Shown here piece by piece: positions 4,201 to 21,380 of a stretch of 21,380 bases of DNA. Position numbers and translations under genes: made by a program. The notes beneath the pieces were generated by a model. The model saw only the letters and a program-made list of their open reading frames with translations, searched no databases and was not told the origin of the DNA. This DNA comes from a virus. How positions within the stretch are numbered: the stretch's first letter is position 1; each line of letters begins with the position of its first letter. The stretch is taken from IMG/VR virus record IMGVR_UViG_3300022752_000450, positions 1 through 21,380 of that record; one strand, written 5' to 3'.

Positions 4201-4547
4201 TGAATAAGGAAGATAAAAAAAAGATCGTTTCAGAAGAGATTGTTTTAACTGATAGCGGCTCTAGTATTGAACTTTTTTCAAACCCAGGAAAGGTTAGGGT
4301 TGTTTTAGGTGAGGAAAAGGATAAAAACGGTTCTGTTTCTTTAAAAAAGTTCGTTACTCTTGATTTTAAAAAGGTTGAGGGGAAAAATGTTGGTGTTTTG
4401 TCCATCAAAAGAGATACGCTAAAAACATTGCTTGCGAACGAAAATGGCGAGTTTGCTATTGCTTATAAAGCAGGCAATGTTTCGGAAAAAATAGAAGATA
4501 TTGAAAAGCGTTTTATGCCTTCTCCTTTTTTATTAAGTAAAGCATGA
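4200..4547 (+). CDS. Hypothetical small head/neck-region protein
   Basis: I do not recognise this 115-residue protein. It starts with a TAATG overlap on the capsid stop and has no clear ribosome site, so it is probably translated by coupling. The N-terminal 20 residues are highly charged and lysine-rich (MNKEDKKKIVSEEIV). The middle looks beta-rich, with alternating hydrophobic residues (GKVRVVLGEE, FVTLDFKKVEGKNVGVLSI), and the end is MPSPFLLSKA. It has no Cys, membrane segment or signal peptide. Its position between major capsid and adaptor genes is compatible with a minor head protein or an assembly helper, but no function can be assigned. Its stop overlaps the next start as ATGA. Confidence 0.75.
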   Translation: MNKEDKKKIVSEEIVLTDSGSSIELFSNPGKVRVVLGEEKDKNGSVSLKKFVTLDFKKVEGKNVGVLSIKRDTLKTLLANENGEFAIAYKAGNVSEKIEDIEKRFMPSPFLLSKA

Positions 4548-4951
4548 CACCACTTGAGTTTTTTGATATTGAGGCTTCTGAGTTTTCTTCATTAAGCGTT
4601 GATATTAAGCAATATTTCATAACATTAGCCGACGGTAAAAAGTCTTATGAATGGTATTGCTTAACTGACGATGAGAAAAACAGAGCAAACGCTTTATATG
4701 CTGCTTACTTAGTAAGTAAAAACCCAAAGTATAGCACATCATCAAACTCAAGTAGTGATTTGTATTTACAAAAGAAGGTTATTGGTCAATCAACTTTTGA
4801 GTATGCTGAAAAAAGCGGATCAAAAAGCTCAAGCGCAACATATTCTTTTGATGACAATTATTATTTGACAGAGTACAAAGAACTTGTTTCTAAATGTGGT
4901 TTTGGTAGTACGTCGTGCAATAGATTATCAATTTACGCTATTAAAAGATGA
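4544..4951 (+). CDS. Probable head-tail adaptor (connector) protein
   Basis: Adaptor proteins dock under the portal ring and extend the DNA channel. This 135-residue protein is the first of four consecutive small genes between capsid and sheath, where myophages encode adaptor, neck, head-closure and tail-terminator proteins. An N-terminal helical segment (DIKQYFITLADGKKSYEW) and the helix NRANALYAAYLVSK recall DUF4054/gp6-like adaptors, which carry a short AxxYxxAHxL-type helix. The centre is serine-rich (STSSNSSS and GSKSSSATYS), probably flexible. A TSCNRLSIYAI end follows. It overlaps the preceding gene by ATGA and has no ribosome site of its own. The assignment relies mostly on gene order. 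Confidence 0.55.
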   Translation: MTPLEFFDIEASEFSSLSVDIKQYFITLADGKKSYEWYCLTDDEKNRANALYAAYLVSKNPKYSTSSNSSSDLYLQKKVIGQSTFEYAEKSGSKSSSATYSFDDNYYLTEYKELVSKCGFGSTSCNRLSIYAIKR

Positions 4952-5430
4952 TAAAAAGCAAAACAGAGTTTAAAAGCAATCTGTTAGAGATATTCAAGGC
5001 AATAACCCAGCTACAAACAAAAAAAATAAAAGCTGGGGTCTTGGATAGATCAGAAAAAAATAGTGAAACTGGAGAATCTGTTGTTGATTATGCTGTTTAT
5101 AATCAATTTGGGTATGGAGTTCCTGCTAGGGCTTTTATGACTATTGGTGGTTTGTTTTCAAAAAAGAATACAGAGCCGTTAGTTATAAATATGTTAAATG
5201 ATTTGTTTAGATTAAAGCCGATAAATAAACATTTGTCAATAATAGCAAAACAAATGTCTTCTGATATTAAATATGCAATAGACCCAACACAAATAAGCCC
5301 AGCTTTAAGCAAAACAACAATAGAGATAAAAAGAAAAAAAGGCAGATCAAACCCGAGCAAAACACTTGTTGATACAAAGAGCCTTCACGGATCAATTAAG
5401 TTTTCTGTTGAGATAAAAAATGTCGTTTGA
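4948..5430 (+). CDS. Neck/tail completion protein, HK97 gp10-like
   Basis: This 160-residue protein matches the HK97 gp10 / Mu gpG-type morphogenesis pattern. It has an N-terminal helix, then AVYNQFGYGVPARAFM (residues about 49-64), equivalent to the family's (A/N)EFG...PARPF segment. Near the C-terminus TLVDTKSLHGSIKFSV corresponds to the usual PLxDTGxLxxSI. Such proteins act at the head-tail junction or in tail completion. It has a 4-base overlap with the preceding gene and an 11-base overlap with the next. The basic stretch IKRKKGRSNPSK before the DTKSLHGSI motif is normal for the family. Confidence is good for the family, less so for the exact position in the neck. Confidence 0.75.
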   Translation: MIKSKTEFKSNLLEIFKAITQLQTKKIKAGVLDRSEKNSETGESVVDYAVYNQFGYGVPARAFMTIGGLFSKKNTEPLVINMLNDLFRLKPINKHLSIIAKQMSSDIKYAIDPTQISPALSKTTIEIKRKKGRSNPSKTLVDTKSLHGSIKFSVEIKNVV

Positions 5431-5857
5431 AATTGTTTTTGCAGATATGCTGCAAGATTTTACTATACTTCGTAGAGGTAGGCAAAGCAAATCAAATGGA
5501 AGACCTATTGAAGGAGCTAGGTCTATCATAACGGTAAAAGGTAGGTATAACTCTGTAGGTGGTTCTTACACTGGAAAACTTCATTTTGATGATGGAGTTT
5601 CATTGATGGAAAACAGTATTTTCTTTTATACACAACAAGATTTGTTTATAACTGGTCAGTATGATGATATGCAGCCAGATTTTGTTTTGATAGATGAAGG
5701 AAATGGCGCTATTTTTATGTATAAAGTTGAGGCTTTATATAAAAACATGGATAACGATACAAGTGATAATAACATAAAACACAATAGATATCTTATCACA
5801 AAAACAATAAAATTTACAAATGATACAGACTGGTTAAGTGGTACTCTAAAGGCATAG
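5420..5857 (+). CDS. Probable head-closure (stopper) protein
   Basis: Head-closure proteins seal the DNA channel after packaging and connect to the tail. This 145-residue protein sits between the gp10-like gene and the tail terminator. It has the composition of small beta-barrel stoppers: ITVKGRYNSVGG, a middle segment IFFYTQQDLFITGQ where the family has a yT...L...G pattern, and a late DFVLIDEGNGAIFMYKVEAL followed by HNRYLITKTI, matching the recurrent D.i....g..Y.V.....~..Hy pattern. The start overlaps the previous gene by 11 bases with GAGAT upstream. The TAG stop at 5855-5857 is one base before the next ATG, in a different frame. Assignment by pattern and order. Confidence 0.6.
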   Translation: MSFEIVFADMLQDFTILRRGRQSKSNGRPIEGARSIITVKGRYNSVGGSYTGKLHFDDGVSLMENSIFFYTQQDLFITGQYDDMQPDFVLIDEGNGAIFMYKVEALYKNMDNDTSDNNIKHNRYLITKTIKFTNDTDWLSGTLKA

Positions 5858-5858
5858 T

Positions 5859-6365
5859 ATGCAAGCAACACTTTTAGAAAGAATTAGAGAGCCTTTTTAC
5901 CATTTTGCAAAAAAATTAACAGGCAATCAAGATGTGATGTTTTACATTGAGCCTGATGATGGTGGCAGCCCAAAGCCAAAAGAAATTTATTTTGTTTTAT
6001 GCCCACTATTAGAAGATGATCTTGGAGCAACGCAGGGAATATATGTACAAGAAGACGAAACGCAAAAAGTAGGCGGACTTAGACAGATGAATATAAGAGT
6101 TTATTGTATTGGAAAAGGCTCTTATTCTTTATTAAGCAGGATAAACACTCTTCTTCATTCAAGCACAGGAAGAATAATAAAAGATGAAGAAAAGATAGCA
6201 ATAGAAACACAAAGTGTTTTTTTATCTCCAAAAACTAATTTAGAACCGATGTATATAGAAACAGCCCACGTAAATGGAGTAGCTAGGTACTATAGTTTTG
6301 AGACAGACAATGAAAACAATGAATATATTGAAACAATAAACGATCCACAAATAACAATTACATAA
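5859..6365 (+). CDS. Tail terminator / neck protein
   Basis: This 168-residue protein probably caps the tail tube and joins it to the neck. It lies directly before the sheath gene, the standard place for a tail terminator. It begins with a helix (LLERIREPFYHFAKKL), followed by beta strands. The segment GGLRQMNIRVYCIGKGSYSL and the late GVARYYSFETDNE resemble tail-terminator proteins such as the LIC_12616/gp12-like group, in which a final Y.f...Y strand is conserved. AAAGG at about 5849-5853 precedes the ATG by 6 bases. I see no membrane segment. The role is supported mainly by gene order, with modest motif support. Confidence 0.6.
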   Translation: MQATLLERIREPFYHFAKKLTGNQDVMFYIEPDDGGSPKPKEIYFVLCPLLEDDLGATQGIYVQEDETQKVGGLRQMNIRVYCIGKGSYSLLSRINTLLHSSTGRIIKDEEKIAIETQSVFLSPKTNLEPMYIETAHVNGVARYYSFETDNENNEYIETINDPQITIT

Positions 6366-6376
6366 GGATAAAATTA

Positions 6377-7741
6377 ATGAAGGAATTATCAATTGATTTT
6401 TGGGTAAGATTAGCTGTAAAGATAAATGATCAGCAAATTGCGACAAAAAGCTATGATAAAGCATTGGCTCTAGCAAACACAATGGCTTTTTCTGAAAGAG
6501 TAAAAACGTATCTTAATATAAATCAAGTAACTGAAGATGGTCATCCTCAAGCTTTGATTGATATGGTTAAGCCGTTTTTTAATGCTGGCGGCGTATTTTT
6601 AAAGGTCGGTCGAAGAAGTTTAAATAAGGCTGTAATCAAGCTAACTGGAGTATTTACTCCGAAATTATACCAATTAAAGATTGGCGACACACTGTATGGA
6701 TATACTAGCGTAGTCGGCGATACCGAGACAGATATTATTGATGGAATTGATGCAGCATTAACAGGTGTGCCAAAAATAACAGTAACAAAAACTGCAACAT
6801 CGATTGAGGTTGTATATATTGATGATGATGATGCTGTTCCTATTAAGTTAATTAAAAACTTAAAATGGGACTCTTTTGAACCAAATTCTGTTTCTGGAAC
6901 TATTATTGATGATTTTGTAAAGATAAAAAATCAGGATAAAGATTTTTATCATATTGTATTGCAAGACAGAGATCAAGATGTTGTTAAAGAGCTTGCATCT
7001 TATGTTGAGTCAAACAAATATGTTTTATACACATCAAGCTCAGACAGCTTAAATTATTCTGACTCTGATGAAGATTCTGGGTTGGCTGGATATTTTAGCA
7101 CACTTGCTTACAATAGAACAAGCTGTATTACAGATAAAAATGCAGATGCACAATATGTTGATATGGGAGCCGCTGGTCTTTATGCGTCTAACGCACCAGG
7201 AAGTGTTACTGGACACTTTAAAGATTTTTCTGGATTAATACCAAGCGAGTTTGAGTCAAGCGAATATATAAACATTAAGAAAAAAAACAGCCCTGCTTTT
7301 GCTTATGTTGAAATAGCAAAAAGAGCTTTTGTTGATGCGACAATGGCATCAGGTAGGTTTATTGATGTTCAAATAGCAAGCGACTGGCTTGTCGAGTCTA
7401 TAAAAGAACAATGGGTTTTTACTTTAAAAAGAGAGAAAAAACTTCAATTTACAGACCTTGGTATACAAAGATTAGTTCAGGATGCGGAGCTTGTGTTAAG
7501 AAGAGCGCAGTCAGCACCTTACAACATAATCGTTTCTGATCCAATTGTAGAGCAAGAATATGTTAATGGCGTTCCAACTCCAACAGGAAATCTAATACAG
7601 CCTTTTGTTGTTACTGCTACTCCAAGAGACCTAGTCCCAGAGCAAAACAGAATTGCTAGGGAGTATGGGGATATATTAATTTCTTGCATATTTGGTGGTG
7701 CTATACATACTATAGCAGCATCTATTGATATAAGTTTCTAA
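6377..7741 (+). CDS. Contractile tail sheath protein (DUF3383)
   Basis: The sheath surrounds the tube and contracts to drive it through the host envelope. The 454-residue length and several DUF3383 landmarks support this: an N-terminal LSIDFWVRLAVKI strand, a glycine-rich AGGVFLKVGRRS near residues 70-81, GYFSTLAYNRTSCI in the middle, PGSVTGHFKDFSGLIPSEF after it, and a C-terminal section with an LQFTDLGIQRLVQDAE helix and the final strand GGAIHTIAASIDISF. Residues about 97-155 form what looks like an inserted beta domain (LYQLKIGDTLYGYTSVVGDT then IEVVYIDDDD). A strong ribosome site, AAGGA at 6364-6368, lies 8 bases before the ATG. The presence of this gene makes the phage a myovirus. Confidence 0.9.
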   Translation: MKELSIDFWVRLAVKINDQQIATKSYDKALALANTMAFSERVKTYLNINQVTEDGHPQALIDMVKPFFNAGGVFLKVGRRSLNKAVIKLTGVFTPKLYQLKIGDTLYGYTSVVGDTETDIIDGIDAALTGVPKITVTKTATSIEVVYIDDDDAVPIKLIKNLKWDSFEPNSVSGTIIDDFVKIKNQDKDFYHIVLQDRDQDVVKELASYVESNKYVLYTSSSDSLNYSDSDEDSGLAGYFSTLAYNRTSCITDKNADAQYVDMGAAGLYASNAPGSVTGHFKDFSGLIPSEFESSEYINIKKKNSPAFAYVEIAKRAFVDATMASGRFIDVQIASDWLVESIKEQWVFTLKREKKLQFTDLGIQRLVQDAELVLRRAQSAPYNIIVSDPIVEQEYVNGVPTPTGNLIQPFVVTATPRDLVPEQNRIAREYGDILISCIFGGAIHTIAASIDISF

Positions 7742-8904: not shown

Positions 8905-11462
8905 CAGATATTGTAGCATCAAGTCTAGTTAATAATCTAACCTTTAATGTAAAAGGCGAAGATAAATTAAAGACTATTGAAGAAAGATTATTAGCAATAA
9001 AAAACGCCGCTGATGGGATTGGTTCTATCAGCGGTATTGCTGCTGCAAAATCTGGAAGATCATCTGTATATTCTGATACCGCAAAAGGTCAATTGCTTTA
9101 TAATAAGGCGATGACTGAGGTATCGAAGCAACACCTTAATGCTGCAAGAATAACGACAGAAGGTTCAAAGCAATATGCAAACTCCGCAAAAGGTCAGTTG
9201 CTTTATAACAAGTCGATGACTGAGGTATCAAAACAATATTCTAACACAGCAAAAGGTCAATATAATTATAATAAGGCGATGACTGAGGTATCGAAGCAAC
9301 ACCTTAATGCTGCAAGAGTTGTTGAAATAAAATCAAAGGCTGATTTAATTGCTTTAAAATCTGTTGCTGAAAATACAAAAATCAAATTGAACGATAATAA
9401 ATCAATTACTGAGACTGTAAAGCAAAATTTATATGCTCAAAAAGCTGTTGAAGCAAAAGCAAATGCTGATTTAAAAGTCGCAAGAGCGTTAGAGTCAAAT
9501 GCAAAAACTATTGCTATTGGTGAAAAGACAAATGAATTAAAATCAAAAGCAGACCTTAATTATGCAAAAATAGCATCAATGGAAAAAAGAGATGAAGCAT
9601 CTGCAATAAAAGAAAGCGCCAGAGCGACAAAAGAAAATGCCAAAGAGCGAGATAGGCATACAAAAATGCTTTTGCGCCAACAAAAAGAATTAAGATCACA
9701 AGCATCTCAGCAATTAAGAGGTGCTATTCCTTTTGGTATGGGCACTCAAGGTGTTTTAGGTGGTATACCAACTCCTCTTGTAGGTATGCTTGGTGTTGGT
9801 GCTATTGCTCAAAAATATGATACAATAATTGGCGCTCAAGGCAGGATTCAAGCTGTTAGCACATTTAATGATCTTGGAAAAGAAGGTGCTTTAAATAATG
9901 TTTTTAAACAAGCTGAGGAGCTAAGGATTGATGCTTCTGATTATGCGACACTATTATCAAGAATAGGATTGGTCACGGAAGATGTTGCAAAAGAAACTGG
10001 ATATGGATCAAAGGGTCTTTTAGATTTTACAACAACTATATTCAAAGGTATGCGGTACAGTGGAGCAGGAACACAGCAAGCTGCTTCAATAATGACGCAA
10101 TTACCCCAAGCATTAGTTGGCGATGCTGGCGGTGAAGAGCTTAGGGCGCTTGTTGAAGGTATGGGTGCATTTGCTAACGACCTAGCTAAGGCAGTTAAAA
10201 ACCCAGATACAGGAAAGTTTTTTAAAAATGCACAAGAGATGAAGAAGTGGACTGGTGTTCAAGGGAATGATTTAACACCAAAAATGCTTATGGACGCAGC
10301 ACTTTCTTTAAAGCCTCTTTATGATGAAAGATTTTTACAGCTACCAAAGTTATTTTCTGACGTTTGGAATAATGCTGGAACTCAAGTTTCAAAAACAATT
10401 ATTGGATTAGAGCGAGATACTGGGTTTTTCTCAAAAACGATTGATGGTCTTTTATCTGGATTGAAACTTGTTGATAAAATAATACGTGTTATTACAGACG
10501 CTACTGGCGGATGGGGAAATGCTATGCAGCTATTTTTCTCATTGTATGGAGCGAAAAAAATTTATGACATGGCTGGTGCAGCAAAAAAATACTGGGATGC
10601 GATGCGGCTTGGCGTGATGTCTTATAATACTGCATCTGGTGCAACTGGTTTAGTTGGAGCTGCTGGCTCTATTGGTGTTGCTGGTAGAGCTGGTTCGGCT
10701 GGGAAATATGCTGTGCAAAGCGGCTATCAAATGGGCAGTGTCGCGACAACGGCTGCAACAACGGCTGGAGCTTTTCGCAGTGCCGCGGCTGGGACTATAG
10801 CATCAATAGGTAAGTTTACTGGCACAATGGCTTTATTAACTTTTGCTGTTGATGAGGGAATAAATATATTAAGCGGGCAAAGGTCTTTTTTGATGGAGAT
10901 GTGGGCTAAAATTACTGGAGATAAATCATACACCTCTTTTTTTGATACAGAAGACGCAATAAAAAGAAAACAAGGTAATGCGGCGTTGCTTGATCGTATA
11001 AGTGCGGCAAACGCTGAGGTTGGATATGAAAAGTTTACAGCAAAAAAACAAGAAGACTATAGTTTTTGGAAAGATACATCTCTTGCTGAAAAATTTACAT
11101 TGGCTACAGAACTACTTACTAACCCAGAATCTTTTTTTAGCACTAGTAAAAAAATTCAAGATAGATACTCGGCTGCACCTAGACTTGAGCAAACTGAAGC
11201 GAATAGAATGTTTAAACACTTTAGAGACCCTGTTTCTGGAGCTGCTATACAAACAGATGAGAGAATACCAGAGGCAGTAAATAGCGCAAATAAAAACTCT
11301 GTTGTCTATAACAACCCAGCAATTATTGGGAATGCTATTGGTAGCGCAGTAAAACTGCCACAACTTAACGTTCAAATTATGCTGCCAAACGGTCTTACTT
11401 TACAACCATTAAGTGTTTCTATAAACAAGGGAAGCGCATCAATACCAACTAGCGCATTTTAA
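8901..11462 (+). CDS. Tape measure protein
   Basis: The largest gene in the window encodes 853 residues and lies between the chaperone pair and the baseplate genes, as a tail tape measure should. It fixes tail length and occupies the tube lumen. Residues about 61-147 contain imperfect repeats of AKGQLLYNKAMTEVSKQ type. Residues 150-270 are Lys/Ala/Glu-rich helix. Residues 274-310 (IPTPLVGMLGVGAIAQ) and 611-653 (GTIASIGKFTGTMALLTFAV) are hydrophobic segments that may insert into host membrane during DNA entry. The C-terminal 200 residues are more polar. I see no obvious lysozyme or peptidase motif. The ATG overlaps the chaperone extension stop as ATGA and has no ribosome site upstream, so translation is probably coupled to the GT frame. 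Confidence 0.88.
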   Translation: MTDIVASSLVNNLTFNVKGEDKLKTIEERLLAIKNAADGIGSISGIAAAKSGRSSVYSDTAKGQLLYNKAMTEVSKQHLNAARITTEGSKQYANSAKGQLLYNKSMTEVSKQYSNTAKGQYNYNKAMTEVSKQHLNAARVVEIKSKADLIALKSVAENTKIKLNDNKSITETVKQNLYAQKAVEAKANADLKVARALESNAKTIAIGEKTNELKSKADLNYAKIASMEKRDEASAIKESARATKENAKERDRHTKMLLRQQKELRSQASQQLRGAIPFGMGTQGVLGGIPTPLVGMLGVGAIAQKYDTIIGAQGRIQAVSTFNDLGKEGALNNVFKQAEELRIDASDYATLLSRIGLVTEDVAKETGYGSKGLLDFTTTIFKGMRYSGAGTQQAASIMTQLPQALVGDAGGEELRALVEGMGAFANDLAKAVKNPDTGKFFKNAQEMKKWTGVQGNDLTPKMLMDAALSLKPLYDERFLQLPKLFSDVWNNAGTQVSKTIIGLERDTGFFSKTIDGLLSGLKLVDKIIRVITDATGGWGNAMQLFFSLYGAKKIYDMAGAAKKYWDAMRLGVMSYNTASGATGLVGAAGSIGVAGRAGSAGKYAVQSGYQMGSVATTAATTAGAFRSAAAGTIASIGKFTGTMALLTFAVDEGINILSGQRSFLMEMWAKITGDKSYTSFFDTEDAIKRKQGNAALLDRISAANAEVGYEKFTAKKQEDYSFWKDTSLAEKFTLATELLTNPESFFSTSKKIQDRYSAAPRLEQTEANRMFKHFRDPVSGAAIQTDERIPEAVNSANKNSVVYNNPAIIGNAIGSAVKLPQLNVQIMLPNGLTLQPLSVSINKGSASIPTSAF
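9081..9317 (+). repeat. Coding tandem repeats in the tape measure, with an exact 52-bp direct repeat
   Basis: Three imperfect units begin at 9081, 9186 and 9249 (codon GCA of AKGQ), giving spacings of 105 and 63 bases, both multiples of 21 bases and of three. Bases 9098-9149 and 9266-9317 are identical over 52 positions at an offset of 168 bases. The encoded units differ mainly by a 14-residue block (HLNAARITTEG region) present in the first unit. Such a pattern points to recent duplication within the gene. Confidence 0.85.
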
Positions 11463-11464
11463 TC

Positions 11465-12076
11465 ATGGAAACTTTTGTAATTAAGTTTGAAGCAACAGAC
11501 GGCGAATTTGGAGTGTTTGAGCTAGAGGCTCAAATGCAAGAAACGATGTCTTTTGAAAATGAAGTAGCTACGCATAGAATAGAAAATGGGCGTAGCTCTT
11601 CTGATCATATCCATAATGTTTCAAAAACGCTAACAATAGTTGCTGACATAACAGACACCCCTCTTAATGATGATCTTTATAGAATAAAAAGAGAGGCTGG
11701 AAGAAGAGAGGCGTATACAAATTTAGCCGTTAGCTTTTATGAAAAAAGAGGGCTTATGATTGTCTATACAAAAAATTATGTATGGGTAAACATGGCTATT
11801 GTAAGTATGGAAAAAAACACGACACCTGATAGAGGTGAGCGTGATATTTATACAATCACATTTAAACAGCTAGATATAACAGACACAAAAACGGTTTCTC
11901 TTCCAAAACCAGTAGCTAGAAAAAAAACAAACAGATCAAAAAATGTAACAAACAAATGTGGAACTCAAACAGACTCTGGGCAAAAACAAACAAATTCAAC
12001 ACAAAGCACTCAAAGCGCTATTGATGCTTTATTATTACCGCCAGGAATGAGAGATACATATCTTCCTAAACCATAA
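11465..12076 (+). CDS. Dit-like baseplate/tail protein
   Basis: This 203-residue protein follows the tape measure. Its N-terminal half carries a segment typical of Dit-like tail proteins: VATHRIENGRSSSDHIHN (residues about 35-52), matching the family's TxHxVExGxxxxDH pattern, followed by a strand TLTIVADITDTP. A second domain includes GLMIVYTKNYVWVNMAIVSM and IYTITFKQLDI. From about residue 146 the sequence becomes low-complexity, rich in Lys, Thr, Asn, Gln and Ser (NRSKNVTNKCGTQTDSGQ), ending in LLLPPGMRDTYLPKP, probably a flexible tail contacting the hub. It is separated from the tape measure stop by two bases and has no ribosome site. Role: ring at the tube tip joining tube and hub. Confidence 0.68.
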   Translation: METFVIKFEATDGEFGVFELEAQMQETMSFENEVATHRIENGRSSSDHIHNVSKTLTIVADITDTPLNDDLYRIKREAGRREAYTNLAVSFYEKRGLMIVYTKNYVWVNMAIVSMEKNTTPDRGERDIYTITFKQLDITDTKTVSLPKPVARKKTNRSKNVTNKCGTQTDSGQKQTNSTQSTQSAIDALLLPPGMRDTYLPKP

Positions 12077-12081
12077 TAAAA

Positions 12082-12453
12082 ATGGAAAAAATACCACTGT
12101 TATCAGGTGAAACAAAACAAAGAGTATCTGTTGATATTGATGAAGTGCCTTATGTTTTTGAGGTACAGTGGAACGATCATGCGCAAAAATTTTATATGTC
12201 TATTTTAACAACCGATCTTGTTGAAATTATTTCTGGTGTGTGTTTGGTTCCAAATACGCCATTAATAGGTAGACATAAAAAAGAAGAATTGCCAAAAGGT
12301 GAATTGTTTTTATTCCGCGTAAATTCAAAAAATGAATATCCGACGTTTGATGAGCTTGATGTTGGGTTTTGGTTAGTATACATACCTAAAACAACTACGT
12401 TAAAAGCACCAGTTTTGCCAATTATAACATCTAGGTATACCGAAACCGTATAG
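12082..12453 (+). CDS. Baseplate plug protein, Pam3 gp18-like (ends at an amber codon)
   Basis: This 123-residue protein resembles the small plug family described for cyanophage Pam3 gp18. The segment VPYVFEVQWNDHAQKFYMSI (residues about 22-41) corresponds to the YxfxxxwNxrxxxWxldI pattern, followed by ISGVCLVPNTPLIGRH and LPKGELFLFRV. It lies between the Dit-like gene and the hub, as expected. The gene ends in TAG (12451-12453), but the frame then continues for 16 sense codons to a second TAG (12502-12504), directly before the hub ATG in the same frame. The annotated end may therefore be a leaky stop or a nonsense mutation. No ribosome site is visible. Confidence 0.68.
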   Translation: MEKIPLLSGETKQRVSVDIDEVPYVFEVQWNDHAQKFYMSILTTDLVEIISGVCLVPNTPLIGRHKKEELPKGELFLFRVNSKNEYPTFDELDVGFWLVYIPKTTTLKAPVLPIITSRYTETV

Positions 12454-12504
12454 GACGAAGGCATAACAACATGGGATAATGGTGATACAAAATGGGATTT
12501 ATAG
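12451..12504 (+). other. Amber codon plus 16-codon in-frame extension between plug and hub genes
   Basis: Reading on past TAG 12451 in the plug frame gives DEGITTWDNGDTKWDL and then TAG 12502. The extension contains two TxW-D units and no rare-looking codons, so it reads like genuine protein. The 51 sense-and-stop bases here form the largest gap between annotated genes that is not explained by frameshifting, in a region where genes otherwise abut or overlap. A weak GGGA at 12494-12497 may serve the hub start 7 bases later. Confidence 0.6.
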
Positions 12505-13485
12505 ATGAGTGAAAATTTTGGCAGGATCGTAAAGCTAACTATTTTTGACAAAGACCCAAAAGAAAAAGGTGCTGATTTAAAAGGCGTTGAAATTGAGTTT
12601 TTAAAAATAGATTTTGAGGTTAAAAAAACATCATCAAAAGAACCAAATTATTGTAGAATTGATATAACAAATTGCAGTCAAAACACGATAGCGTATCTTG
12701 AAAAAATAGGAAATATAGCTATATTAGAGGTTGGATACGCTGGATTAGATGGAACAGGGAAGCCGACTGTTTTATTTACAGGCAATATTGTTAGGTTTGA
12801 TCCTCCAGGAGACGTTGCTGTTGATGAAGTTGTTTCAATAGAGGTTAGGGACGGATATTTAGAATATAGAGACACAAGAATATCTGTTTATAAGGACGTT
12901 GGTGCAAACGCACTCTCAGTATTAAAAGAGATTGTTTCTTATTTTAAACTTCCAGTTGAAAAACTTCCTGCAATTGAAGATAAGGTTTATGTAAACGGAT
13001 ATTCTTATACTGGAAAACTTAGAGAGGCTATGGATAGGGTTTGTAGATACCTTGGGCTAAGTTGGTCTATTCAAAACAGACGTATTCGTATTTTAAAAAA
13101 AGGTGAAACATATACTAAGCAATTTTATCATTTAACTTATGATAGTGGGCTTGAATTTTGTGGTAGAAAATCAATCACGGAAGATGATAGAAAAAAAGCA
13201 ACCAAAAGAAAAACAATATCAACCGAAAGAAAAGCAAAATCAACCAAGCTGACAAAAAAAGATAAAACTGACTTTGTTTTACCTGGCGACAATGAAAAAC
13301 TGAAAGTACAAGGAGTTGTTGTAAAAACGAGACTCAACCCTTTACTTTTACCAGGAGATACTGTTAAAATTACAAGTAAAATAATTGATGGTGATTTTTA
13401 CTCTATTGACGACATAGAATACAGAGGATCAAACGTTGATAATGAGTTTTATTGCAGATTTACTGCGAAAATAATAAAAAAATGA
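12505..13485 (+). CDS. Baseplate hub protein, gp27/gpD-like
   Basis: The hub is a trimer at the centre of the baseplate that joins the tube to the spike. This 326-residue protein fits in length and position, between plug and spike. It begins with beta-rich sequence (FGRIVKLTIFDKD, EIEFLKIDFEV) and has the gpD-like sequence LFTGNIVRFDPPG and SIEVRDGYLEYRDTRIS. A helical block AMDRVCRYLGLSWSIQNRRI follows, then a basic low-complexity linker (residues about 224-254, rich in Lys, Thr and Arg), and a final barrel with LNPLLLPGDTVKITSK, where the family has a PGD motif before a V.i strand. The stop TGA overlaps the spike start as ATGA. No lysozyme domain is present. Start chosen as ATG directly after TAG; the frame is continuous with the plug. 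Confidence 0.8.
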   Translation: MSENFGRIVKLTIFDKDPKEKGADLKGVEIEFLKIDFEVKKTSSKEPNYCRIDITNCSQNTIAYLEKIGNIAILEVGYAGLDGTGKPTVLFTGNIVRFDPPGDVAVDEVVSIEVRDGYLEYRDTRISVYKDVGANALSVLKEIVSYFKLPVEKLPAIEDKVYVNGYSYTGKLREAMDRVCRYLGLSWSIQNRRIRILKKGETYTKQFYHLTYDSGLEFCGRKSITEDDRKKATKRKTISTERKAKSTKLTKKDKTDFVLPGDNEKLKVQGVVVKTRLNPLLLPGDTVKITSKIIDGDFYSIDDIEYRGSNVDNEFYCRFTAKIIKK

Positions 13486-14198
13486 ATGATTCTGATTTTT
13501 TACAACAAATAGCCAGTAGGACAACTGAAGATGATATACATAAAATTCTCAAAGAGCATCTCAATACCAGTTTTCCTGCTACTGTTGTTAGTTATAGCAA
13601 TGGTCGTGTAAAGGTTAAGCCTGACATATCAAAAGATTATCAGGATGACGAAAGCCTTGAATATGCTGTACTAAATGCAAAGGTAATATACCCTAGATTT
13701 GACAACGGAAGCGCTGGTGTAAAGGGTAGGATAACAAAAGGTACGAAAGGGTATGTTCATATAGCGCAAGCAGCCACTGATAACAGTGGTGATCAACGAA
13801 GCTATGATTTGTCAGATGCCTTTTTTTATCCGTGTGATCCAACATTATCTGATCCAGTTGGGGTTGGAAATGATGAAATGGCTATGTTTTGGGGTGCAGC
13901 AAAGATAAGTATAAGTGAGGATGGGTTTATTACAATAGTAGCACCAAAAGGATTTAAGGTTATTACGCCAAAAGGCGAATTTACAGCAAAGCTAGAAACT
14001 GGAGATAATCTTAACGTAAAGTCTGGTGGTATTGATAATGTAGGTGGAATTAGAAATAGCGGTGGGATTGTTAATGCTGGTGGATTCTCAAGCACTGGCG
14101 CATCAACTTCAAACGGTGAAAAAATTACAACTGAGTCACATACACACAACTACACAGACGATGATGCGCAAAAAGTTACTGAAAAGGCTAATGTGTAA
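13482..14198 (+). CDS. Baseplate spike (central puncturing) protein, gpV/gp138-like
   Basis: The spike trimer leads penetration of the outer membrane. I choose ATG 13482 (238 residues), which overlaps the hub stop as ATGA, over TTG 13452. The N-terminal 30 residues are helical; an OB-like domain follows (FPATVVSYSNGRVKVKPDI to GYVHIAQAATDNSGDQ), as in gp138/gpV spikes. Residues 182-205 hold four six-residue units starting GG(I/F): GGIDNV, GGIRNS, GGIVNA and GGFSST, expected to wind as an intertwined beta-helix needle. Residues 220-222 are HTH in ESHTHNYTDDD, the HxH signature that binds an iron ion at the spike apex in P2 gpV and phi92 gp138. Its stop overlaps the next start as TAATG. Confidence in the role is high. 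Confidence 0.87.
   Translation: MNDSDFLQQIASRTTEDDIHKILKEHLNTSFPATVVSYSNGRVKVKPDISKDYQDDESLEYAVLNAKVIYPRFDNGSAGVKGRITKGTKGYVHIAQAATDNSGDQRSYDLSDAFFYPCDPTLSDPVGVGNDEMAMFWGAAKISISEDGFITIVAPKGFKVITPKGEFTAKLETGDNLNVKSGGIDNVGGIRNSGGIVNAGGFSSTGASTSNGEKITTESHTHNYTDDDAQKVTEKANV
14025..14096 (+). repeat. Four 18-base hexapeptide units in the spike
   Basis: Codons at 14025, 14043, 14061 and 14079 each start a six-residue unit with Gly-Gly and Ile or Phe at the third position. This exact six-residue period is typical of beta-helical needle segments. The nucleotide copies have diverged, so the repeat is kept by protein selection, not by recent duplication. Confidence 0.75.
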
Positions 14199-14560
14199 TG
14201 ACTGCTGATTTTAAATTGACAGAAAATGGTGATTTAGATTTAACAAATGGCAGAATGTCTTTATCAAAAGACACCGATGCGGTTGCACAAAGGGTAATAA
14301 ATAAGATTTATTTGGCTACTGGCGATTGGGACTTTGATTTGGTTTTTGGTACAAACTGGGACTTGGTGTTTGGCGCAAAAGGCAATACAAATATAAAAAA
14401 TGCAGATAACATTATTAAGTTGGCAATAAGAGAGACAGAAGGTGTTGCTGAAATTTTAACATACAAATCCACTTTAAACAACAAAACAGGTGAGTTCTTA
14501 ATAGAGTGTTCTATTAAAGATGTTTATGGAAAAACAATAAATCTAATAACAAAAAAATGA
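14198..14560 (+). CDS. Baseplate wedge protein, gp25-like
   Basis: This 120-residue protein matches the small gp25/gpW wedge family in length and order. The N-terminus (DFKLTENGDLDLTNGRMSL) carries the usual ...xxGDlxl.~G.~.l.~.~ strands, then DTDAVAQRVINKIYLATGDW (residues about 25-44), where the family has an i.q.i..~L.t..GEw helix-turn, then FGTNWDLVFGAKGN. A helix (IIKLAIRETEGVAEIL) and two strands finish the fold. It clamps the hub and connects to the gp6-like wedge encoded next. It starts at a TAATG overlap with only a weak AAGG upstream, and its end overlaps the following start by ATGA, so the three genes are probably translated together. Confidence 0.85.
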   Translation: MTADFKLTENGDLDLTNGRMSLSKDTDAVAQRVINKIYLATGDWDFDLVFGTNWDLVFGAKGNTNIKNADNIIKLAIRETEGVAEILTYKSTLNNKTGEFLIECSIKDVYGKTINLITKK

Positions 14561-15990
14561 CGCTTATAAAAGCAGATAAAAATGGTGTTTCAGTACAGAC
14601 ACTCCCAGAGCACTTAACGGAGCTTTTTGATACATTTTCTGAAAAATCTGGCATACCTATTGATAGAAAAGCAGATGACTTAACTGGTCAGGCTTTTACC
14701 ATTTTATCAGAAATGGCGACAGATATTGCAAGTAAGGTTCAATATGTATCAAGTCAGTTTTCAATTGATAGCTCTGAAGATGTTTTTCTTGACTATGCAG
14801 TTAGGTATGGTTTAATTGAAAGGCAGGAGGCAACACCAACAACGGTTTATGGTATATGTTACGATAACGAAGGTGTTGTTGTAGGCTCAGGCTTTGAGGC
14901 TAGAGATTTGTCTGGAAATAGTTTTTTGTCTATACAAGATACGACAATAACAAAAGACTATTGTGTTGATATAACGTTTTCATTTTCTGTTCAAGATAAT
15001 ACAACATATTCTATTGTATTGTCTGGCTCCGCAATATCAACAACAACAGGTGTATCAGCTACTGTTGATCAAATAATTGATGCTTTAATTCCGCAAATAG
15101 ATTCTGAAAAATACATAGTAGAAAAAAAAGAAGCAACATTAAGAGTTTTTTCAAAAAATGGATATTCCCCATTTTCGGTAAGCACAAGCACCAATATTTC
15201 AATAGATGAAATTGGCACGCCAGTATATTTTGTTTGTTCTGTTGATGGTTCTATAGCCTGCCAAGCTAATACTCTCACCATAATGGACTCGGAAGGTGTT
15301 AATAGAATAAACAACCTTGCAGATGGATTTGTTGGTAACGACATTGAAAAAGATGAAGAGCTTAGGGATCGTTTTTACAGGTCTGGTGGAGAGCAAGGCT
15401 ACGCAACACTAACGGCAATAAAATCAAGACTTGAAAACAACGTTGATGGCGTTTCAAATGTAACTGTATATCACAACCCATATTCAATAATCGACGCATT
15501 TGGTATGCCAAGGCATTCTGTTGAAGCTATTGTTGAGGGCGGTGAAGATCAAGCTATTGCAAATGAGCTTTTATTAAACTCGGTTGCGGCTGGCGTCGAG
15601 ACCCATGGAAATGTTGTTGTTGGCGTTAATGATGGCAATGGAAGCATTCAAGAATGTCGTTTTTCTAGGATCACATTCAAATATATCTGGGTTAAGGTTG
15701 ATATTCTAGCACTAAATGGCGAAGAATCTTTGGTTTTAGATGCAATACCAGCAATAAAGAACGCAATCTTGTCTTATGGCAATAAAATGGGCGTTGGTGA
15801 AAATGTTATTCCACAAAGATTTTATGGCTCTATTTATGGAGTAACAGCGGGGATAAGAGAGCTTGATGTTTCTGTTGCTGAAACAAATCTTCCTACAGAC
15901 ACCCCATCTTATGCTGATTATGATATACCAATATCAAGAAATCAAAAAGCATCTTTTGCTTTGGCAAGAATTATTGTAAACGGAATATAG
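14557..15990 (+). CDS. Baseplate wedge protein, gp6/gpJ-like
   Basis: Gp6/gpJ proteins form the ring of wedges around the hub that controls contraction. This 477-residue protein has a helical N-terminus (LPEHLTELFDTFSEKSGIPI), then the conserved SEDVFLDYAVRYGLIERQEA (residues about 73-92), equivalent to the family's G..LD..~~~~G~.R..a pattern. It then has FEARDLSGNSFLSIQD and the late FVGNDIEKDEELRDRFYRSG and SRLENNVDGVSNVTVYHNP, all characteristic of baseplate J. Residues about 149-220 seem to be an inserted beta domain (TTYSIVLSGSAISTTTGVSA, then ATLRVFSKNGYSPFSVST). The stop TAG is followed at once by the next ATG in the same frame. No ribosome site is visible. Confidence 0.87.
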   Translation: MTLIKADKNGVSVQTLPEHLTELFDTFSEKSGIPIDRKADDLTGQAFTILSEMATDIASKVQYVSSQFSIDSSEDVFLDYAVRYGLIERQEATPTTVYGICYDNEGVVVGSGFEARDLSGNSFLSIQDTTITKDYCVDITFSFSVQDNTTYSIVLSGSAISTTTGVSATVDQIIDALIPQIDSEKYIVEKKEATLRVFSKNGYSPFSVSTSTNISIDEIGTPVYFVCSVDGSIACQANTLTIMDSEGVNRINNLADGFVGNDIEKDEELRDRFYRSGGEQGYATLTAIKSRLENNVDGVSNVTVYHNPYSIIDAFGMPRHSVEAIVEGGEDQAIANELLLNSVAAGVETHGNVVVGVNDGNGSIQECRFSRITFKYIWVKVDILALNGEESLVLDAIPAIKNAILSYGNKMGVGENVIPQRFYGSIYGVTAGIRELDVSVAETNLPTDTPSYADYDIPISRNQKASFALARIIVNGI

Positions 15991-16731
15991 ATGGCAGACC
16001 TATACGAAAAATATTTATCCAGGCTTGCTGGAAGGTTTGTTGGAAAGCCAAACATAGAGGCTTTTTTAAGAACAGCAATTAAGCCTTATCAAGAACTTAG
16101 TGATGCCTGTGATTTTATTTTAACAATGGCCAACTTAGATGATGCTGTTGGATATTGGCTTGATATACATGGAAGCAGGGTTGCTGAAAAAAGAGATGGT
16201 AGAGATGATGACGAATATAGAGATGCTATAAAATTTAAGATAGCATTAAAATCGCCAAAGGCAACAATATCAGCAATTTTTAAGGCATTAAATTTTTTTG
16301 CACCAAAAATAAGATACGGTGTTTATATACCTCATTACCCAGCAGGGTTTTCGCTACTAACAGACTCACCTTTAATAAGACGAGTTGCTTTAGAAGGAAT
16401 AAAAAAAATAACAGCGGCTGGTGTTGGTTTAGATATTTATTACACAAAAGGAATGCCTATTAGTTTTTTAGGTGGGCTTTCTGATCAAACATTTCTTGGT
16501 CAGCAGAATAATAGACTGATTTATGCAAAACACAACAATAATCTTGTAAAAATAAAGCTACAAACGCTTTATTATTCAAAAGGAGGAACGCCTCTTGGCG
16601 GACTAATTGGTTCTTACCTAGGAGCACAATCTGGTAATTTTATTAAAACACAAAGTGGAAAAAGAATTATGTTGCGATCAAATATGAAATCTGTTGGTGG
16701 TTTTAGATTATCTGGAGTTTATACGGTATGA
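15991..16731 (+). CDS. Baseplate/tail protein, DUF2612 (gpI position)
   Basis: This 246-residue protein matches DUF2612 proteins, which follow gp6-like wedges and probably connect wedge to fibre. Supporting segments are the N-terminal YLSRLAGRFVGKPNIEAFL, a central FILTMANLDDAVGYWLDIHG (residues about 43-62), the DDDEYRDAIKFKIALKSPKA block and FFAPKIRYGVYI. The C-terminal 80 or so residues are an extra glycine-rich region with repeated Leu-Gly-Gly/Gly-Leu motifs (SFLGGLSDQTFLGQQNN, TPLGGLIGSYLGAQSGNF) which may form the fibre-docking surface. ATG follows the previous TAG directly; the end overlaps the next start as ATGA. Confidence 0.78.
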   Translation: MADLYEKYLSRLAGRFVGKPNIEAFLRTAIKPYQELSDACDFILTMANLDDAVGYWLDIHGSRVAEKRDGRDDDEYRDAIKFKIALKSPKATISAIFKALNFFAPKIRYGVYIPHYPAGFSLLTDSPLIRRVALEGIKKITAAGVGLDIYYTKGMPISFLGGLSDQTFLGQQNNRLIYAKHNNNLVKIKLQTLYYSKGGTPLGGLIGSYLGAQSGNFIKTQSGKRIMLRSNMKSVGGFRLSGVYTV

Positions 16732-17237
16732 CGGTAAAAAAAACAAGGCTTGGTGTTTACGCAAAAGAACCTGTAACAAAAAATGTTTTGGATGGAGTTC
16801 CTATGCAAAACAGGATGCCATTTTCACAAACATCGGCTTTTTTTGCTGGTAAAAAACCACCAATAAATACCACTACAGAAAAAACATTAGCCGACACTGT
16901 TGCAGCACAAGAATGGAATGAGCTTGCGTATTTAACAACAAAACAGATTGACTTGTCTGGTATAAGCGATGGTGAAGGTGATAATTTAATCACATATAAA
17001 AATTGCTTTATTAAGATAAGTGCTATTGATCTTGGTGATCAAACAAAATTTTTTGAAGCAAGAGGATGGGTTGGTGAATTAAATATTGTACCACAACTAA
17101 CTGTAATTGCGTCAAATGGGTTGTCGTTAGGAACGATAACAGCAAATGGAGCAATTCCTATAGTTGGAGGTAGTAGTGTTGCTAATGTAAGAGTGTTATG
17201 CGAATTAACACCAATAGATTTTAGAAGTGGGGAATAA
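16728..17237 (+). CDS. Hypothetical baseplate-to-fibre linker candidate
   Basis: I do not recognise this 169-residue protein. It overlaps the DUF2612 stop as ATGA and is two bases before the first fibre gene, so it is probably a baseplate-peripheral or fibre-adaptor protein. The N-terminus is basic (MTVKKTRLGVYAKEP). The middle has an Ala/Trp helix (LADTVAAQEWNELAYLTTKQ). The C-terminal half is beta-like with repeating hydrophobic and small residues (LTVIASNGLSLGTITANGAI, then VANVRVLCELTPIDF). It has no signal peptide, membrane span or catalytic motif. Function is inferred from position only. Confidence 0.7.
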   Translation: MTVKKTRLGVYAKEPVTKNVLDGVPMQNRMPFSQTSAFFAGKKPPINTTTEKTLADTVAAQEWNELAYLTTKQIDLSGISDGEGDNLITYKNCFIKISAIDLGDQTKFFEARGWVGELNIVPQLTVIASNGLSLGTITANGAIPIVGGSSVANVRVLCELTPIDFRSGE

Positions 17238-17239
17238 GA

Positions 17240-18514
17240 ATGGCAGATTTTACACCAGTTGAAATAGAGCAGCTACGTTTACTGCTTCAAAAACAAAGCG
17301 AATTGTTATCTATTGCTGATGATGCTGCAGCTCTTGATGTTGTTGCTGGTGCTGGTCAAGAGACAATACTTGATTTAAACGAAGAAACAGCCGCTACGTT
17401 AAATTTAGCAGATAAAACAGTTATCGATAAAAACGATGGCTCTGCAACAAAATCGCTTGCAATGTCAGGATTAGTTTCTTTTGTTAGCGGTCAAATTGGT
17501 GGAGGCGGAACTGAGTTTAATAAACAAGGTCATTTTAAATGGGTAGCTGGTGGTGGAGATGGTGGTGCAGGTTATAAACTAAATGATATAGTTTATCATA
17601 ACGGGAATACCTATATATCAACCGCCAACAACAATACCACTATTCCTGGTGCTGCTCTAGCAAGCTGGGATATTTTTTATCAAAACGCATCGACAAGCGT
17701 TAAAGGCATTACGCAACTACAAAGCACAGTTGATGATACTGAGAAAAATGCTGCAACGCCAAAAGCAATAAATAGAAGAGATGTGCATATACAAACCAAT
17801 GATTACAAAAAAGGCGCACGCGTTCAAAATGGTTTTGGTGGTGGTTGGCACGAAGCTGTTCAGGATGTGCCTGTCAATACTTTAATAACAAACCCGCTTT
17901 TCTGGCTGCCATCTAGTAATTTTAAAATTTTCAATTCGGACGATGTGCTAACAACTTCTCGCGCTTTAACGGTAAACGATATTAATAAGCATCTTGTTCT
18001 TAGTGGACCATCAAATCAAACTTTTTCTTTGCCCCTGGCAAACTCAGTGCCATCTGGATCAATGATTTTTGTTAAAGGAAGAAAAGATTTTAGAGCAACA
18101 TTTAATAGTCAAGGTTCTGATACTATCAACATAGATTCAGGAGCTGGCTTCACTTCATGCTCTTGCCGTGCACCCGAATCAATCATATTAGTATCAAATG
18201 GCAATCAAGATTGGCGCTTGACAAAAATAAATCCATTTTATAACGCAACAGCATTTACAGCACCTGCCCGAGCTGCAAATACAAACTACACAAATAGTTC
18301 ACCATTTCCTATTAGAGTAATAATTAATGTTAGTATGGGTGGGGCTGGGTCTTCCATAGTTTTAAGTGGGGCTTCGTCACACGCAAAACCATTCATTATA
18401 TTAAATAGTAACTTTTCAATTGAATCGTGGTTTTATCCTGGGGAGGTTTATCAACTCAGTACCACTGGAACGGTTACAATAGTTAGCTGGTTTGAATATG
18501 CTGTTACTATTTAA
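17240..18514 (+). CDS. Tail fibre protein with phage fibre repeat
   Basis: This 424-residue protein probably binds the host surface. The N-terminal 45 residues form a helix (VEIEQLRLLLQKQSELLS) suited to baseplate attachment and trimerisation. A glycine-rich hinge follows (residues 86-112). Residues 110-148 resemble a small carbohydrate-binding module (YKLNDIVYHNGNTYISTANN...ASWDIFYQ). Residues 150-178 match the phage fibre repeat type 2 pattern (STSVKGITQL ... NAATPKAINRR). The distal part is beta-rich (LNKHLVLSG-like strands and TFSLPLANSVPSGSMIFVKG). From about base 17815 arginine shifts from AGA to CGC/CGT/CGA, suggesting that the distal half was exchanged. GGGGAATAAGA lies before the ATG. 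Confidence 0.75.
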   Translation: MADFTPVEIEQLRLLLQKQSELLSIADDAAALDVVAGAGQETILDLNEETAATLNLADKTVIDKNDGSATKSLAMSGLVSFVSGQIGGGGTEFNKQGHFKWVAGGGDGGAGYKLNDIVYHNGNTYISTANNNTTIPGAALASWDIFYQNASTSVKGITQLQSTVDDTEKNAATPKAINRRDVHIQTNDYKKGARVQNGFGGGWHEAVQDVPVNTLITNPLFWLPSSNFKIFNSDDVLTTSRALTVNDINKHLVLSGPSNQTFSLPLANSVPSGSMIFVKGRKDFRATFNSQGSDTINIDSGAGFTSCSCRAPESIILVSNGNQDWRLTKINPFYNATAFTAPARAANTNYTNSSPFPIRVIINVSMGGAGSSIVLSGASSHAKPFIILNSNFSIESWFYPGEVYQLSTTGTVTIVSWFEYAVTI

Positions 18515-18526
18515 TAAAGGACAAAA

Positions 18527-19366
18527 ATGTTTTATTGTATAAATAAAAAAACAAAACAAATTTACGCATTCGACACAGAGCTCGAGCGAGATAATAAAGT
18601 TAAGTCTGATCCTGATTTTGTTGTTTGCGATGCGAGACCAAGCTTATTCCACGAATGGTCAGGTAGTGCATGGGTTTATGATGCGAATTTAGAGATGTTA
18701 AGCACAAAGAGTGCTTCCGTTGATGTTCTAAAACAGCTTGATGCGATTTATCGCAAAAAAAAGGATGGCGCTTTTCCTGTTGATATGACGGCGATTATAA
18801 ACAGTCTAAATATACCGAATAATACCAATATTTTATTCCCAACAAGCCAGCCTTCTTTTAACATAACCAACACTCCAAAACCAGCCACTTGTCAAAATCA
18901 AAAAATCGTTGGTTATTCAACAAGTAAAATAAAATACCCAACCCATGACCGTTGTGTGTTGTGGGTTCAAGATAGTCGAGATATCCAAAGCCTAGTTTCA
19001 CTTGGGCATGTTTTAGCCGCCGATTGGGTTTCAAAAAATAGCAACTCGTCCATTTCTGATTATGTTCATTATCAGCAAATCGGCATTGCTGGTGTTCAGT
19101 ACCGAGCAAATGAGATTAGAACGTTACAGCCCGATGGATATCCGATTGTTTTGGATAAACACTCGTTAAAAATGTGGATTCTTATTTTGGAAAAAATAAA
19201 TGAAAAAAAAGAACAATTGCATGGGCGATATCTTTTGTTAAAAACACAGATAAACAATTGTTCAACAATGGCCGCGCTTGAGTCTATTAAAGAGAATATG
19301 AAAACTGGGTGGGTTGAGGTTTTTAGTGATGATCAAACACCAGCTGGCTTGACAGTTGTTAGATAA
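18527..19366 (+). CDS. Probable tail fibre-associated or assembly protein
   Basis: The 279-residue product is not firmly recognised. The N-terminus has SLFHEWSGSAWVYDANLEML, a Trp-x-Gly-x-Trp block common in proteins encoded next to tail fibres (DUF4376-like and fibre-assembly proteins). The last 60 residues are a helical LEKINEKKEQLHGRYLLLK followed by INNCSTMAALESIKENMKTG, which resembles the I..~t..el..i end of DUF4376 proteins. The middle (residues 85-200) is unassigned. It has a clear site, AAAGGA before ATG 18527. Of nine arginine codons six are CGN, unlike the tail genes upstream (sheath: one of fifteen), which suggests horizontal exchange. Whether it is a fibre subunit or a chaperone is unresolved. 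Confidence 0.55.
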   Translation: MFYCINKKTKQIYAFDTELERDNKVKSDPDFVVCDARPSLFHEWSGSAWVYDANLEMLSTKSASVDVLKQLDAIYRKKKDGAFPVDMTAIINSLNIPNNTNILFPTSQPSFNITNTPKPATCQNQKIVGYSTSKIKYPTHDRCVLWVQDSRDIQSLVSLGHVLAADWVSKNSNSSISDYVHYQQIGIAGVQYRANEIRTLQPDGYPIVLDKHSLKMWILILEKINEKKEQLHGRYLLLKTQINNCSTMAALESIKENMKTGWVEVFSDDQTPAGLTVVR

Positions 19367-19383
19367 AATAGAGGTAGATATTT

Positions 19384-20186: not shown

Positions 20187-21380
20187 ATGAGTAAATCTGA
20201 ATTTGGGGCATTGGTTGGCATTATTGATCAATATAACTCACTTAGTCAGCCTAAAATAGAGATGGTAGCTAATCAAGCTGAGATGTTATCTCTAAATGCT
20301 GATGTTGGCGTTATTGTGATTAGAGCAGATGATAATAATTATCAATACCGATTGAAAGCATTGCCTGCCAACAGCCTAAGTAATTGGCAAGTATTAGGAA
20401 AAGACGCACAGCCAATCGGTGAAACGGTTGCGGATGTTATTACAACAAACGAAGTGATTACATCAAAGGCAGATGGGCTTTATGCTTTTACTGGCGTTCC
20501 AAATGGGGGCTTTCCATCTGGAATTTCACAAGGTGATATTGCACAAAAAACAGGTGCAGTTTGGACTGTTGTTTATAATTTCGCAAGCGCACCAGCTACC
20601 ATATATTCTATTAGTGATGGTCAAACTTATGATAAGAAAATAAACACGAGCGGGCAAAATAGTTGGGTTCAAAAACCTAAACCTGCTGTTTATGAAATGG
20701 GCTCCGATAGAGAGTTTGTTTCTGTTAACAGCATGTTCGCAAAGTTTATTACAGATGCCATTGCTGTTGGGGCTGGAATTGTCTATGACTCAGTTGTTAA
20801 CGAAAAGATTGTATTCGCGTCGAATGCGCAAAACTTTTTATTACAAGGCTACGGTACGACAACAAGAAACAATTCGCAAATTTCAAGTTTTGAAATTTTA
20901 GGGCACAGATTCACATTAAAAAATGTGCAAGCGTTTGCTAATACTGGTGTTCAAACACGCACAATTTCAACAACAAGTGGTTCAAAAATAATCAATATTT
21001 CTGGCGCAGGGCAAACAACAGCAGGATTTCTAAAATATCAAAAAATCACTGGCACTGGAATCCCAGCATTTTCATATATTGACACGATAGTTAACTCAAC
21101 TTCGTTCACAATTAATCAAAATGCTACTGCTAACGGAACAAATATAACAGCAACTATACAGCCCAAAGCACCTGTTGTTATTGATTGCAGTGGAACTATT
21201 ACAGAGAACGGCGTTCAAAACGTTCCAAGAGGGAAACATGTTTTTGACGGGGTCAGCTTTTCAAACCCATCGGGCGACTCGGCCGTAGATATTTTTAATT
21301 GCGGGAGCTTTATTGAATTTAAAGACTGTGATTTTGGAAATAAGACTATCAATATATTCAGCTCTTCAGCTTCGTTAAGC
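20187..21380 (+). CDS. Tailspike/fibre protein with beta-helix onset (3' end outside window)
   Basis: The frame is open from ATG 20187 to the right edge, 398 codons with no stop. The N-terminus (PKIEMVANQAEMLSLNADVG, residues about 22-41, then IVIRADDNNYQYRL) is a frequent attachment module of phage fibres. Residues about 256-328 form a repeat-like beta module (TISTTSGSKIINISGAG ... ITGTGIPAFSYIDTIVNSTS ... INQNATANGTNI), common in bacterial and phage surface proteins. From about residue 330, VIDCSGTITENG, HVFDGVSFSNPSGDSAVDIF and FIEFKDCDFGN have the short-strand, Asn/Cys/Phe-ladder rhythm of a pectate-lyase-like parallel beta-helix, as in tailspike depolymerases. The catalytic region would lie beyond the window. 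AGGA at 20174-20177 precedes the start. Confidence 0.68.
   Translation, partial: MSKSEFGALVGIIDQYNSLSQPKIEMVANQAEMLSLNADVGVIVIRADDNNYQYRLKALPANSLSNWQVLGKDAQPIGETVADVITTNEVITSKADGLYAFTGVPNGGFPSGISQGDIAQKTGAVWTVVYNFASAPATIYSISDGQTYDKKINTSGQNSWVQKPKPAVYEMGSDREFVSVNSMFAKFITDAIAVGAGIVYDSVVNEKIVFASNAQNFLLQGYGTTTRNNSQISSFEILGHRFTLKNVQAFANTGVQTRTISTTSGSKIINISGAGQTTAGFLKYQKITGTGIPAFSYIDTIVNSTSFTINQNATANGTNITATIQPKAPVVIDCSGTITENGVQNVPRGKHVFDGVSFSNPSGDSAVDIFNCGSFIEFKDCDFGNKTINIFSSSASLS

Follow-up and report, generated by a model that had tools for sequence, protein, structure and literature searches.

A probable recent nonsense allele that trims a conserved Trp-Asp tail from a phage baseplate plug

The window, that is, the whole stretch of 21,380 nucleotides analyzed here, comprises positions 1-21,380 of the IMG/VR virus record IMGVR_UViG_3300022752_000450 and is itself a fragment. 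Its gene content fits a baseplate cluster of the contractile tail type, with tape measure, Dit-like, plug, hub, putative spike, wedge and J genes. The features around the junction between plug and hub are the following:

12082-12453, + strand: plug open reading frame of 123 aa (coding 12082-12450, stop TAG 12451-12453)
12082-12393, + strand: plug core, residues 1-104, a beta fold of the Pam3_gp18 family (Pfam PF22479, predicted strands, Foldseek)
12394-12450, + strand: linker, residues 105-123, leading from the core to the Trp-Asp (WD) tail and still translated in the window (pLDDT, plug alignment)
12451-12453, + strand: TAG nonsense codon at the site of the first conserved tail Trp (TGG in the related record G001, TAG in the related record G002)
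12454-12501, + strand: remnant of the WD tail, DEGITTWDNGDTKWDL, 16 codons now past the stop (tail translated in G001)
12494-12497, + strand: GGGA, a weak Shine-Dalgarno-like element of putative function, 7 nt 5′ of the hub ATG (sequence reading)
12502-12504, + strand: original plug stop TAG, common to G001 and G002 (sequence comparison)
12505-13485, + strand: baseplate hub gene, with its ATG at 12505 in the plug frame (PHROG 196)

An earlier note on this DNA had described plug, extension and hub as a single frame broken by two ambers. Its coordinates and translations are borne out by the open reading frames and by a reading of the frame over 12082-13485, where taking TAG as sense gives one plug-tail-hub frame of 467 aa. 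The protein identities that it proposed also stand, since the plug matches Pam3_gp18 (PF22479) with E 3.5e-20 (72.8 bits against a curated cut-off of 24.2) and the hub matches the PHROG 196 baseplate hub profile with E 6.3e-49. An open run of 16 codons past a stop is in itself nothing rare, occurring at 299 of the 1355 stop triplets in the window (22%), though at only 1 of 23 other gene ends. It is comparison that sets the present run beyond chance, through the Trp found at the TAG position in G001 and the tail motif of distant homologues.

The AlphaFold2 model of the G001 plug, whose confidence is modest (mean pLDDT 62.9), shows a beta-rich core with strands from residue 2 to 101 and an end at about 101-104, followed from residue 105 by pLDDT values below 50, with the tail predicted to be disordered. 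Foldseek matched this model to solved baseplate plugs (7yfz_h, E 6.4e-06; 9ndy, E 3.1e-06; also 9cuy_M), the matched proteins being 102-118 aa long and coming from Pam3, Bas63, PhiTE, Pa193, E217 and XM1. The Pam3 gp18-like plug (PF22479; 7yfz_h) thus resembles that of the window in its core fold, with significant sequence and fold matches, as well as in the gene order Dit-like, plug, hub and spike. However, compared with the matched solved plugs, the gene lineage of the window had an extra linker and WD tail of ~36 residues, which in the window is cut by the TAG. A homologous core is also encoded just 5′ of the hub gene in Pantoea phages PSKM and LIET2, Erwinia phages phiEt88 and phiEa21-4, and Pseudomonas phage PAK_P1, whose plugs (107-118 aa), unlike the tail-bearing ones, end soon after the core and lack the WD tail. 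The plugs of six cultured relatives measure 107-118 aa without this tail, and when plugs from cultured phages were aligned, their divergence was too great for the alignment to serve as a scan query. The core folds independently of the tail, and a plug stopping at residue 123 still has the core in full as well as the linker.

Scans of IMG/VR, for which the queries were three proteins (plug, hub and baseplate J) as well as a DNA pattern, retrieved only two close records, G001 (72,164 bases) and G002 (6,953 bases), whereas bacterial genomes scanned with the hub yielded no relative and a terminase comparison identified no host. In G001, the codon at the site of the window TAG is TGG (Trp), and the plug reaches 140 aa, ending in VWDEGITTWDNGDTKWDL and a stop. 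G002, which diverges from the window by ~2.6% over 6.3 kb, has the same TAG together with the neighbouring synonymous variants of the window. The occurrence of the TAG in two records with this level of divergence indicates that it is real and inherited. A sequencing or assembly error at 12451 would fit a codon differing from that of G001 by a single base, but the sharing of both the TAG and its neighbouring variants with G002 makes it very improbable, and sequencing error was rejected on these grounds.

The window and G001 differ in the plug gene by 8 synonymous and 1 nonsynonymous codon changes and, across the 16 tail codons, by 3 synonymous and no nonsynonymous changes in addition to TGG/TAG. 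Three randomly placed changes would all be synonymous with P ~0.012, and this synonymous-only divergence indicates that the tail has been under protein-level constraint during most of the period since the window and G001 diverged. The tail was therefore translated until recently. The suggestion of the earlier note that the 16-codon extension looks like protein is therefore upheld, in the sense of a former coding sequence, since G001 translates the tail and distant plugs share its motif. Between the window and G002, the tail shows one change, from Gly to Val, at a site occupied by Gly in all the other plug tails, as expected if constraint was relaxed after the TAG arose, a single change being too few for proof.

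A DNA pattern combining the tail motif, a stop and an ATG retrieved plugs from unrelated contigs, and a broader three-repeat pattern gave 73 stretches. Besides G001, 12 of these are plugs or plug fragments (L027, L028, L029, L032, which is a fragment, L033, L039, L042, L044, L083, L088, L095 and L097), several of them near-identical, so that they represent ~5-7 independent lineages. The distant plugs that were aligned share 32-39% identity with that of G001 and match Pam3_gp18 where tested, with PF22479 hit by all 10 members of the plug alignment. They end in T/S-x-WDxGxxxWDxGxTxWD[QM] and a stop, and the hub ATG follows 0 or 1 codon later in the same frame; over the distant homologues as a whole, the residue after the last WD is L, M or Q. 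The TAG of the window occupies the first Trp of the three Trp-Asp repeats, a position where every tail-bearing homologue has Trp. The presence of Trp in G001 and in all the tail-bearing outgroups indicates that the TAG is the derived state. Since the search pattern itself required a Trp at the first repeat, complementary scans were carried out for tails with TAG or TGA at that position, which returned G002 only for TAG and no case for TGA.

This comparison of homologues, which the earlier note had proposed, shows relatives that carry the tail with a sense codon (Trp), rather than relatives that end at the same place with varied, non-coding sequence after the stop. Among the three explanations then offered, a recent mutation to TAG fits best, although the original codon was TGG, as in G001 and the homologues, and not CAG, GAG or AAG.

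A related question is whether TAG is read as sense. As had been claimed, TAG works as an ordinary terminator elsewhere and recoding is not needed: a 145-aa gene of the window at 5420-5857 has TAG as its stop, whereas its same-length G001 counterpart has TAA, and translation with TAG as Q leaves nearly all the open reading frames of the window unchanged. No tRNA was found in a search of the window, whereas G001 encodes tRNAs for Arg, Met and Pro only, none of which reads TAG or has the CUA anticodon of a suppressor. The RNA 3′ of the TAG folds no better than shuffled sequences (z ~+0.6). Whole-phage TAG recoding (code 15) was rejected from the TAG=Q translation, the TAG/TAA swap at a homologous gene end and the tRNA searches, which found no suppressor. 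Phages with TAG reassigned to glutamine under code 15 (PMC9523058, PMC10607447) share with the window a TAG within a former coding frame. In the window, unlike in those phages, a single site is affected, a Trp is replaced, TAG remains a normal stop and no suppressor tRNA was found.

The regulated leaky stop put forward in the earlier note finds no backing in these data: neither the window nor G001 yielded a suppressor tRNA, and the RNA downstream forms no stable structure. Programmed read-through, under which the stop would be kept among relatives, was likewise discarded, as G001 and the distant relatives have Trp. A basal read-through is possible, and nothing points to a regulated one. Amber suppression occurs in some hosts, and partial read-through, either by such suppression or by near-cognate decoding, would yield a minority of tailed plugs and mixed forms in each virion. 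The nearly intact, in-frame tail after the TAG speaks for this possibility, but the lack of a suppressor tRNA in either sequence and of RNA structure 3′ of the TAG, the consistent encoding of the tail by relatives, among which no further stop at this site came to light, and the Gly-to-Val change in the G002 tail make it unlikely.

The most probable explanation, to which we assign a probability of about 0.83, is a recent TGG-to-TAG nonsense allele that trims the plug tail, an ordinary truncation rather than an unusual reading of the code. The ancestral plug of 140 aa would have consisted of a folded core of ~104 aa, a flexible linker and three Trp-Asp repeats ending just 5′ of the hub. In the lineage that comprises the window and G002, the first of these Trp codons would have changed from TGG to TAG, so that the protein would stop at residue 123, leaving core and linker intact and losing the last 17 residues. 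The stop is presumably effective, and the plug may well work without its tail, as natural tail-less plugs exist. The tail was probably lost in the window lineage and is probably a conserved but dispensable, accessory element. That its loss is tolerated is suggested by the retention of the core, the tail-less plugs of cultured phages and solved structures, and the occurrence of the allele in two records. On the other hand, two observations run against a plain truncation: the remnant is nearly intact, with one change between the two TAG records, as maintained read-through also predicts, these records being too close to separate loss from maintained read-through; and the stop is present in two records ~2.6% apart, hence not quickly purged. 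What looked like a possible recoding event resolves as a natural truncation, illustrating how comparison recognises one, and nature offers matched alleles, with and without the tail, of a nearly identical protein, which make the function of the tail testable.

Expression of the hub has to be considered together with this truncation. Relatives that carry the tail have their plug stop immediately adjoining the hub start, an arrangement that suits termination-reinitiation, and in the window plug termination is shifted 51 nt upstream. The hub would then be translated either from its own weak GGGA site or through reinitiation at a distance of 51 nt from the new stop. This GGGA is formed by the last Trp-Asp codons and is kept in all of the three close records. 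The sequence that follows the TAG could have been retained as a ribosome-binding site for the hub and not for translation, a tentative proposal that is compatible with a truncating nonsense allele. It would fit the last-WD TGGGAY, which in the window lies 7 nt 5′ of the hub ATG and in all relatives just 5′ of the hub start, as well as the complete match of the three close records over the 20 nt that precede the hub; but it accounts for the last ~12 nt only, and the GGGA match is weak and also a simple consequence of Trp-Asp codons.

A rare plug-hub fusion had been suggested too. Programmed read-through of both ambers would produce it, and plug and hub do share a frame in the window and in all the tail-bearing relatives. 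However, every tail-bearing relative has the second stop, which varies (TAA in most of them, TGA in a single one and TAG in the close relatives) and so argues against the fusion; common descent accounts for the shared frame, and most tail-less relatives have plug and hub in other frames or overlapping. With no sign of selection for read-through into the hub, the fusion is hardly credible.

The WD tail is a more interesting lead than the nonsense allele, as the comparison brings out a conserved Trp-Asp tail in a set of phage plugs and, judged by motif, in further virion proteins. In four virion protein families that are unrelated to one another, namely the Pam3_gp18 plug, Mu Gp48, the neck/tail terminator PF23961 and the minor tail protein PF05939, the triple tail WDxGxxxWDxGxTxWD lies 0-11 residues before the stop (C-terminal examples are L033, L029, L045, L096, L061, L065 and L063), whereas in other proteins, such as L037, L052 and L059, the motif is N-terminal or internal. 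The motif gives the impression of an exchangeable peptide that recurs among the structural proteins of phages. A more speculative and quite improbable extension would regard the TAG as a tolerated, partly read stop that sets the fraction of Trp-Asp-tailed plugs, the tail being an undescribed attachment or docking peptide common to unrelated virion proteins.

Further observations concern the rest of the window. The TAG stop of the baseplate J gene abuts the in-frame ATG of the next gene (window 15988-15991), a junction of the plug-hub type that is present in G001 too. The relationship between the window and G001 is mosaic, with ~95% nucleotide identity over 9584-19376 and 4480-5868, 83% at 5859-6973, ~65-69% in the segments 235-1945 and 20397-21357, and large parts of the remainder lacking any reported match. 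The tape measure gene contains a 63-bp tandem repeat of 2.2 copies (window 9161-9299); its open reading frame encodes 853 aa in the window, compared with a shorter open frame of 789 aa in G001, and the repeat stretch aligns repeatedly. Finally, a putative tail fibre gene (17240-18514) differs from its G001 counterpart by 38 nonsynonymous and 30 synonymous codons plus 33 gapped codons, an excess of nonsynonymous changes that the plug, hub and wedge genes, unlike the tail fibre, do not have.
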